Positions 4,291 through 6,745 of a stretch of DNA of 35,811 nucleotides are shown one piece after another. The notes beneath the pieces were generated by a model that was given only the letters and a program-made list of their open reading frames with translations, had not been told where the DNA came from and made no database searches. The number at the start of each line of letters is the position of its first letter. The first letter of the stretch is position 1. The position numbers were made by a program, and so were the translations under genes. The DNA comes from an uncultured bacterium (lineage in GTDB: Bacteria; Planctomycetota; UBA8108), in NCBI GenBank assembly GCA_913042995.1, contig CAJWMA010000004.1:1-35811 (forward strand), read 5' to 3'.

Positions 4291-4425
4291 GACCTTGTCG
4301 CAGGGCGCGGCAAGCGTGGCAGCGGTCCTTTTCTTCACCCGGGCTTGCTGCTATGCTGAAGGTTCGTCGCGGCGGTCCTGCCGCGAAAAATCAATCCTTT
4401 ATGCCCTCTTATGCAAGGAGCAGAC

Positions 4426-5055
4426 ATGCGCGGAAAATATCTCGTCATCGGTCTTGCGCTCCTCACCGGCGGATTCACGGCGAGAGCCGTGGCTGACGAT
4501 GCCGGGAAGAACGCGAAAGCGCCGAACTCTCTTTTTGAATTCAAGGCGAAGGACATCGACGGAAAGGCCGTGGCCCTGGACAAGTTCAGGAACCAGGTTC
4601 TTCTCGTCGTCAATGTCGCCAGCAGGTGAGGCCTCACCGGACCACAGTACTCGAGTCTCGAGTCACTCCAGAAAAAGTACAAGTCCAGGGGTTTCCAGGT
4701 GCTTGCGTTCCCGGCCAATAACTTCAATGGACAGGAACCAGGAACGAACCTGGAGATCAAATCCTTCTGCCGGAAGCAGAAGAAGGCGACCTTCCCTCTC
4801 TTCTCCAAGATCTCGGTAAAGGGCGCTGATATGCACCCGATCTACAGGTTCCTCACCGATAAGAAGAACGCCAAGCTCGGTGGAGCCGTAAAATGGAACT
4901 TCCAGAAATACCTCGTCAACCATGAGGGAAAGGTCCTGGCGAAATTCTCGCCCAGGGAGGATCCCATGGGCGCGAAGGTAACGGCGGCGCTGGACAAGGC
5001 CCTGACCGCTCGCGGCGCCTACAAGAAGCCCGCGGGATCGAAGAAGAAGGGATAG
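4426..5055 (+). CDS. Glutathione peroxidase, probable selenoprotein (Sec encoded by TGA 4627-4629)
   Basis: Two track ORFs (4411-4629, 4699-5055) share one frame. Read-through gives LLVVNVASR[U]GLTGPQYSSLE...LAFPANNFNGQEPGTN...VKWNFQKYLV, the GPx motif set. AAGGAG at 4415-4420 precedes ATG 4426. N-terminal signal-like segment. Confidence 0.85.
4646..4667 (+). promoter_or_regulatory. Putative bacterial SECIS hairpin
   Basis: AGTACTCG / CGAGT(C)ACT stem (5 bp + 3 bp with one bulged C), apical loop AGTCT, 24 nt after the TGA. Confidence 0.65.
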
Positions 5056-5140: not shown

Positions 5141-5935
5141 TCAGTCCTCTTCGAGGAGAGCCCTCCAGTCCATGGAATCATCTCCATAGGCCAGGACGGA
5201 AGGATTGCGCAGGTCGTCCTTATTGTAGAGCAGCCTGCGCCCAGAGAGATCGACCAGGTAGCCCCCGGCCGTCTCGAGAATGCATTGGGCCGCGGCGGTG
5301 TCCCACTCCATGGTCGGGACGAGACGCGGATAGAAATCCGCCTTCCCCTCCGCCACCAGGCAGAACTTCAGCGAGCTCCCCATGCTGACGCACTCGGCCC
5401 CATCGAGACGCTCGAGCAGAGCCTCCACCTGCGGGCCAGCGTGATCCTTGCTCGCCACGATTCTCAGGCCCGGCGGATCAGCCGGACTCACGATGATCTC
5501 GTCGACGGATCCATCCGCGCGGATGGCGAAAGCTCCATCGCCGCGCGAGGCGTAATAGTATTCACCAGTGGCTGGCGCGTGAACAACACCCAGCACCGGC
5601 TCGTCTCCCTGGACCCGCGCAATATTCACCGTAAACTGGCCGCTCTGCTTGATGAACTCCTTGCTCCCATCAAGAGGGTCGACGACCCAGAAATCATGCC
5701 AGCTCTTACGGTCGGCTATTTCATCCTTGTCCGACTCCTCCGACAGCACCGGCAGCCAGGGGTCCAGCACCTGCAACGAGTTCACGATCACAAAGTGGGC
5801 CGCCTTGTCGGCAAGCGTAAGCGGTGAATTGTCCTCCTTGTACTCCACCGGGGCATCGCTTCCGTAATGTTCCATCGCGGCGCGCCCGGCTGACGCCGCG
5901 ATCTCCAGTACCTGTTCCAACAGCTGGTTGTTCAT
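5141..5935 (-). CDS. cysQ: 3'(2'),5'-bisphosphate nucleotidase (CysQ/inositol monophosphatase family)
   Basis: SPLTLADKAAH, LSEES, FWVVDPLDGSKEFIKQSGQFTVNIA, MEWDTAAAQCILETAGG motifs. Confidence 0.85.
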   Translation of the reverse strand: MNNQLLEQVLEIAASAGRAAMEHYGSDAPVEYKEDNSPLTLADKAAHFVIVNSLQVLDPWLPVLSEESDKDEIADRKSWHDFWVVDPLDGSKEFIKQSGQFTVNIARVQGDEPVLGVVHAPATGEYYYASRGDGAFAIRADGSVDEIIVSPADPPGLRIVASKDHAGPQVEALLERLDGAECVSMGSSLKFCLVAEGKADFYPRLVPTMEWDTAAAQCILETAGGYLVDLSGRRLLYNKDDLRNPSVLAYGDDSMDWRALLEED

Positions 5936-5995: not shown

Positions 5996-6745
5996 ATGCG
6001 CGACGATATGCTAACCGAGCTTGAAAAAGTGATCAACGCGCGGCGAAGAATCTACCTTCTTCGCCATGGCGAGGTCAGCTACTTTGACCCCAGCGGGGCT
6101 CCCTACCAGCAGGCGGAGGTTCCGCTGAACGGAGAGGGCCGGAACCAGGCCTGCGCCGCCGGAAAGGCTCTCAGCGAAGCGAAAATCGACCTGGTAATAA
6201 CCAGCGGACTGCCGCGAACCCTGCAGACCGCCGAGCTGGCCCTGGAGCAGATCGGCTCCAGGCCGGAAACTGAAACTATCGAGGATCTGCGCGAGATCAT
6301 GCCCGGCGATACCTTCAAGAACGCCGGCAAAGGCGCCGATCTCGCCTTCGCCAATTCGCTGCGGAAGTCCCTCACGCGGGACACTGAGTTTTTCGGCGGG
6401 GAGACCTTCGGTTCACTGGAAGACAGGGTGATCCCAGCCCTCGAAGACCTGGCTGCGCGAGGCGACTGGAAAGAGCTTCTCCTGGTGGCGCACGGGGGAA
6501 CCAACCGAATGATCCTTTCGAGAGCCCTCGGCGGCGACCTCGACACCTTCGGCCGAATCGAACAGGATGCCGGCTGCATCAACATCATCGATCTCGACGC
6601 GGATGGGTCCTTCCTCCTGCGACTGATCAACTACACCCCGGAATCACCCGTGAAGGCCGACATACGCCTGAGTACGATGGAACAGATCTACATGACCTCC
6701 CTGCGGCCGGGACGCAAGGCGGAGCCTCCCCCGGGCAATGCCTGA
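5996..6745 (+). CDS. Histidine phosphatase (phosphoglycerate mutase-like) family protein
   Basis: YLLRHGEVSYF (RHG), ITSGLPRTLQTAELAL, LLVAHGGTNR; ATG 5996 preferred over upstream TTG. Confidence 0.8.
   Translation: MRDDMLTELEKVINARRRIYLLRHGEVSYFDPSGAPYQQAEVPLNGEGRNQACAAGKALSEAKIDLVITSGLPRTLQTAELALEQIGSRPETETIEDLREIMPGDTFKNAGKGADLAFANSLRKSLTRDTEFFGGETFGSLEDRVIPALEDLAARGDWKELLLVAHGGTNRMILSRALGGDLDTFGRIEQDAGCINIIDLDADGSFLLRLINYTPESPVKADIRLSTMEQIYMTSLRPGRKAEPPPGNA

Follow-up and report, generated by a model that had tools for sequence, protein, structure and literature searches.

The window (the whole stretch of 35,811 nucleotides that was analysed) derives from an uncultured bacterium of the Planctomycetota, a phylum to which proteins of the PSCyt/PSD1 type also point, and contains, on the plus strand, a glutathione peroxidase (GPx) gene that is interrupted by a TGA codon at the catalytic position, followed by a short hairpin. 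The features of this locus are listed below; the role of Cys115 is presumed from known thioredoxin-dependent GPx enzymes, and that of Trp157-Asn158 follows from established GPx biochemistry.

4415..4420, plus strand: Shine-Dalgarno-like AAGGAG, 5 nt upstream of the ATG, read directly from the sequence
4426..5055, plus strand: gene for a predicted selenocysteine (Sec)-containing glutathione peroxidase, 209 amino acids including one Sec, ATG at 4426 and stop codon TAG at 5053-5055
4426..4497, plus strand: probable N-terminal signal peptide, MRGKYLVIGLALLTGGFTARAVA, from a by-eye reading of the translation
4627..4629, plus strand: putative Sec-encoding TGA, residue 68, at the catalytic position, aligned to the Cys of Cys-type relatives
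4633..4680, plus strand: codons +2 to +17, with no synonymous change within the genus
4649..4663, plus strand: putative bSECIS hairpin ACUCGA-GUC-UCGAGU, stem 4649-4654 / 4658-4663, loop GUC 4655-4657
4768..4770, plus strand: Cys115, candidate resolving cysteine, nearly invariant in the alignment
4894..4899, plus strand: Trp157-Asn158, GPx active site, invariant in the alignment

The glutathione peroxidase gene and its product

The original prediction, according to which an in-frame TGA at 4627-4629 separates two open reading frames of the same frame, was exact in its coordinates, from the ATG at 4426 to the TAG at 5053-5055, and the translation contained no lesion other than this TGA. The read-through product is a full GPx, as had been suggested, and matched the Pfam family GSHPx (PF00255) with an E-value of 1.5e-37 and 128 bits, as compared to a curated cut-off of 27, over 107 of the 108 profile positions (1-107). 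In the alignment, the TGA coincided exactly with the catalytic Sec/Cys of the NVASxUG motif, here NVASR-U-GLT, which is where the prediction had placed it. Sec68, Trp157 and Asn158 of the catalytic residues were present, while the usual Gln was replaced by Asn99, which is a local peculiarity; the equivalent position is also variable (E, D, S or N) in the Cys relatives.

The matches in the PDB were GPX4-like, with E-values down to 1.3e-43, and the closest were GPX4 and designed GPX4-like proteins. The product is probably a monomer-type (GPX4-like) glutathione peroxidase in an exported form, as judged from these matches and from the signal-like N-terminus, which was seen in members of the genus and was absent from the Sec-GPx proteins of another family in the phylum (f27). 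Neither promoters nor terminators beyond chance expectation were recovered when the gene was scanned for them. A gene caller using translation table 11 would miss the gene, as had been anticipated; genes of this type are divided or left out by standard gene callers, with the consequence that peroxide defence in an uncultured lineage is misread as missing.

Conservation of the TGA codon and the downstream hairpin

The TGA was identified at the catalytic codon of GPx in all five genomes of the genus (G000-G004, of which G000 contains the window), although the sequence breaks off just past the TGA at a contig end in G002 and at a run of N in G001. Three of the five differ from the window protein at 16-23% of the residues over the aligned stretch, and retention of the codon across this divergence argues that it is not there by chance. 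Among the order-level relatives with a GPx gene, G006 has TGT and G007 has TGC at this codon, both encoding Cys. The close homologs thus carry TGA and the more distant ones TGC or TGT. A sequencing or assembly error at a TGC or TGT codon could be suspected from the fragmented state of the assembly, but the identical TGA and the frozen hairpin behind it are shared by independent assemblies of diverged genomes. The agreement of five assemblies refutes this explanation, to which we attach a negligible probability.

The ratio of nonsynonymous to synonymous substitutions (dN/dS) between the window genome and G004 was 0.11 before the TGA and 0.17 after it, so that the downstream decay which the prediction had named as a refuting sign was not seen. 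This bears directly on the possibility that the gene is a pseudogene cut by a nonsense mutation. The in-frame stop is what such a mutation would leave behind, but the same TGA is present in five genomes, the frame is otherwise without lesion, and a dN/dS of about 0.17 downstream of the TGA shows that the gene is not a pseudogene. The conserved TGA and the purifying selection on the codons behind it refute this reading, and we consider it very improbable.

The synonymous sites immediately after the TGA were under a constraint of their own. In codons +2 to +17, 0 of 16 codons had changed synonymously, as compared to 21 of 54 upstream and 29 of 98 further downstream (Fisher p 0.0025), and the comparison with G002 gave 0 of 10 (p 0.010). 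Likewise, dS was 0.09 over codons +1 to +17 and 0.59-0.78 elsewhere. A freeze of this kind is what an RNA element overlapping the code leaves behind, and the frozen stretch includes the hairpin, which spans codons +7 to +12 and has the first loop position, a G, 25 nt after the UGA. An alternative fold has a 5-bp stem and the loop AGUCU.

Bacterial SECIS elements have been described in PMC13188914 as hairpins with a loop of 3-9 nt, a stem of 4-16 bp, a G among the first two nucleotides of the loop, a distance of 16-37 nt from the UGA and a minimum free energy (MFE) at or below -7.5. The window hairpin fits this geometry (a 3-nt loop beginning with G, a 6-bp stem and a distance of 25 nt), and segments of 35 nt and 40 nt that contain it have an MFE of -8.0 and -9.1, respectively, while the bare 22-nt hairpin has -6.9. 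On its own, it exceeded synonymous-codon shuffles only marginally (p 0.054). When the hairpin region of 40-70 nt was shuffled by dinucleotides, the shuffles were not clearly worse than the real sequence; the z-scores were uninformative, and comparative tests were therefore used. An Rfam scan of the gene region gave nothing above the cut-off, and no bacterial SECIS was among the listed matches.

The stem and the GUCU loop were recovered in 10 of the 11 Sec GPx genes, which fall into two groups and are not eleven independent cases, and in none of the 137 Cys homologs. In G093, the loop was retained and the stem broken. The hairpin of the f27 Sec-GPx genes, ACUCC-GGUCU-GGAGU, is in the same register as that of the window with two pairs compensated; in the test of compensated pairs, 6 of 500 shuffles scored as high, and the result was zero for slid versions. 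It is this comparative evidence that carries the interpretation of the hairpin as a putative bSECIS. The search for such an element proposed with the prediction thus recovered a hairpin of the bSECIS type, in place and protected at synonymous sites.

Selenocysteine decoding genes and other likely selenoproteins

The genome that contains the window (3.9 Mb, 464 contigs, 91% completeness) has a complete set of genes for Sec decoding, located on separate contigs; each of the four components listed for a check (selA, selB, selD and tRNA-Sec) was found in the same genome. SelA was identified with an E-value of 6e-168, selB encodes a protein of 644 amino acids with EF-Tu-like domains and the SECIS-binding C-terminus (SelB-wing_3), and selD was recovered as a fusion (E-value 5e-90). 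The tRNA-Sec has the anticodon TCA (UCA) and scored 67.5 bits, as compared to a cut-off of 47 bits. SelA accompanied the Sec-GPx in all five genomes of the genus and in the five f27 genomes covered by the search; this co-occurrence is consistent with Sec decoding rather than strong evidence for it, since 167 of 245 genomes of the phylum have SelA.

In the selD fusion (L020:1384-3648, minus strand), SelD is located behind a pyridine nucleotide-disulfide oxidoreductase domain; the protein passes the selD cut-off and is below the cut-off of the model 'fusion_not_SelD', which also scores. Some 12 bases separate the tRNA-Sec gene (L012:12-109) from the end of its contig.

With the GPx, an AhpC-type peroxiredoxin and a TlpA-like protein, the genome probably encodes at least three selenoproteins of peroxide and thiol chemistry, as judged from their codons and hairpins. 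The AhpC-type gene (L180:42-641, minus strand, contig C318), identified in a search for the AhpC-TSA domain, has an in-frame TGA at the peroxidatic Cys (FFYPADFTFV-U-ATE), followed by a strong 8-bp hairpin of -11.7 kcal/mol (p 0.006 against synonymous shuffles). G001 has a copy of the gene that is 98% identical and likewise contains the TGA. In the TlpA-like protein, the TGA is at the first Cys (WGYG-U-GPC) and the hairpin has a synonymous-shuffle p of 0.0008; the gene is split at the TGA and the hairpin between L192, at the end of C225, and L189:3-350, at the start of C287. This TGA was kept in all five genus genomes as well as in three genomes of the order, G006, G007 and G008, with one compensated pair (A-U to G-C) in the hairpin of these three, and the Cys paralogs of the protein in G006 and G008 are without the hairpin.

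In a 37%-identical AhpC-type homolog at the class level (L204, G010, contig C26), this codon is likewise TGA, and a hairpin of 8 bp is present. All matches from the search for formate dehydrogenase fell short of the family cut-off; a weak match to the alpha subunit (contig C90:10882-11367) contains one TGA. Assembly breaks were observed at or beside the hairpins of the Sec codons, as a run of N in G001, a contig end in G002 and a split gene in G000 (L053, L052 and L189/L192).

Several genes with an in-frame TGA could also be taken to indicate that TGA has been reassigned throughout the genome to an amino acid such as Cys, Trp or Gly. Neighbouring genes, however, end in TGA, at 5141-5143 on the minus strand and at 6743-6745 on the plus strand, which had already been pointed out in the prediction, and the GPx gene of G003 (L024) has both an internal and a terminal TGA. 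The tRNA-Sec with its matching anticodon is present, and the three in-frame TGAs examined are all at redox Cys positions and followed by hairpins. Use of TGA as a stop codon refutes genome-wide reassignment, which we regard as having virtually no probability.

Proposed mechanism, known relatives and distribution in the phylum

The gene at 4426-5055 would thus encode a GPX4-like, probably exported glutathione peroxidase with Sec as the peroxidatic residue, decoded via the downstream hairpin, and we assign a probability of about 96% to this interpretation. The Sec genes, the hairpin, the codons of the homologs and the lack of decay downstream all support the original assignment as a Sec glutathione peroxidase, in so far as genomic sequences can. 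By analogy with the decoding of Sec in known bacteria, the hairpin that follows the UGA at 4627 would recruit SelB-GTP with its Sec-tRNA(UCA), and Sec would be inserted in place of termination. The protein would be exported through the N-terminal signal-like stretch, its selenol would reduce hydroperoxides, the presumed substrate, and Cys115 would probably form a selenenylsulfide that is reduced by a thioredoxin-like partner.

In known bacteria, Sec decoding competes with termination. Insertion of Sec at the UGA could accordingly be incomplete, with a truncated product of 67 residues or a low efficiency serving as a selenium-dependent switch; the sequence holds no sign of a function for the short product, and we find this variant unlikely. 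The reading as a Sec-decoded, GPX4-like enzyme is the one compared below to known systems.

Sec-GPx is already a known kind of bacterial selenoprotein, GPx being a family listed as such in passages of PMC1794560 and PMC13188914; what is new is a member in a lineage that is unnamed in those passages. As described there, the Gpx of Treponema denticola (PMC1794560) and the GPX-like UxxT family (PMC13188914) likewise belong to PF00255 with Sec at the peroxidatic position. The UxxT motif corresponds to UGLT in the window GPx, and both would be decoded by SelA/B/C/D, whereas the window protein differs from these relatives in its lineage, in the apparent signal peptide and in the replacement of the Gln of the catalytic tetrad by Asn99. 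It also contains an additional residue within GLTGPQY, as do its Cys relatives and in contrast to the other Sec-GPx family of the phylum.

Mammalian GPX4, the closest natural family in the PDB by sequence, is of the monomer type without the oligomerisation loop and has equivalent Sec, Trp and Asn residues. In contrast to GPX4, in which the SECIS is located in the 3' UTR, the putative element of the window is in the coding region beside the UGA, and the window protein has the candidate resolving Cys115. The bSECIS hairpin of E. coli fdhF, with the loop RGUCU and a G-U step, presumably resembles that of the window and is taken as a lead only; the window loop is located 25 nt after the UGA, and the host gene is unrelated.

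We searched 392 genomes of the phylum with a sequence pattern and identified a TGA at the same GPx codon in seven, all of them from a single family other than that of the window, f27, while the reversed pattern, used as a control in the same genomes, gave no match. The pattern allowed a gap of 3-6 nt and was hence blind to the genus of the window, where the gap is 7 nt; the genus and the order were covered by a protein search instead. In the protein tree, the Sec-GPx proteins of the genus grouped with the Cys proteins of their own order (support 89) and separately from the Sec proteins of f27; the tree required four changes between Sec and Cys. A single Sec clade was not rejected by the AU test (p 0.173), and we therefore do not claim an independent origin of Sec as shown.

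A tentative scenario, to which we would give somewhat less than an even chance, is that a Cys-GPx became a Sec-GPx in the genus independently of f27. The hairpin would then have arisen twice under a similar coding constraint or have been inherited from a Sec-containing ancestor. If true, this would represent a natural exchange of Cys and Sec with the Cys relatives still at hand. Either independent gain or repeated loss of Sec may have taken place among the GPx proteins of the phylum. The apparently exported Sec-GPx is found beside Cys relatives, and such close neighbours, with the hairpin in one and not in the other, form a good set for studying this exchange. The hairpins of the genus and of f27 have the same loop, RGUCU, in the same register.
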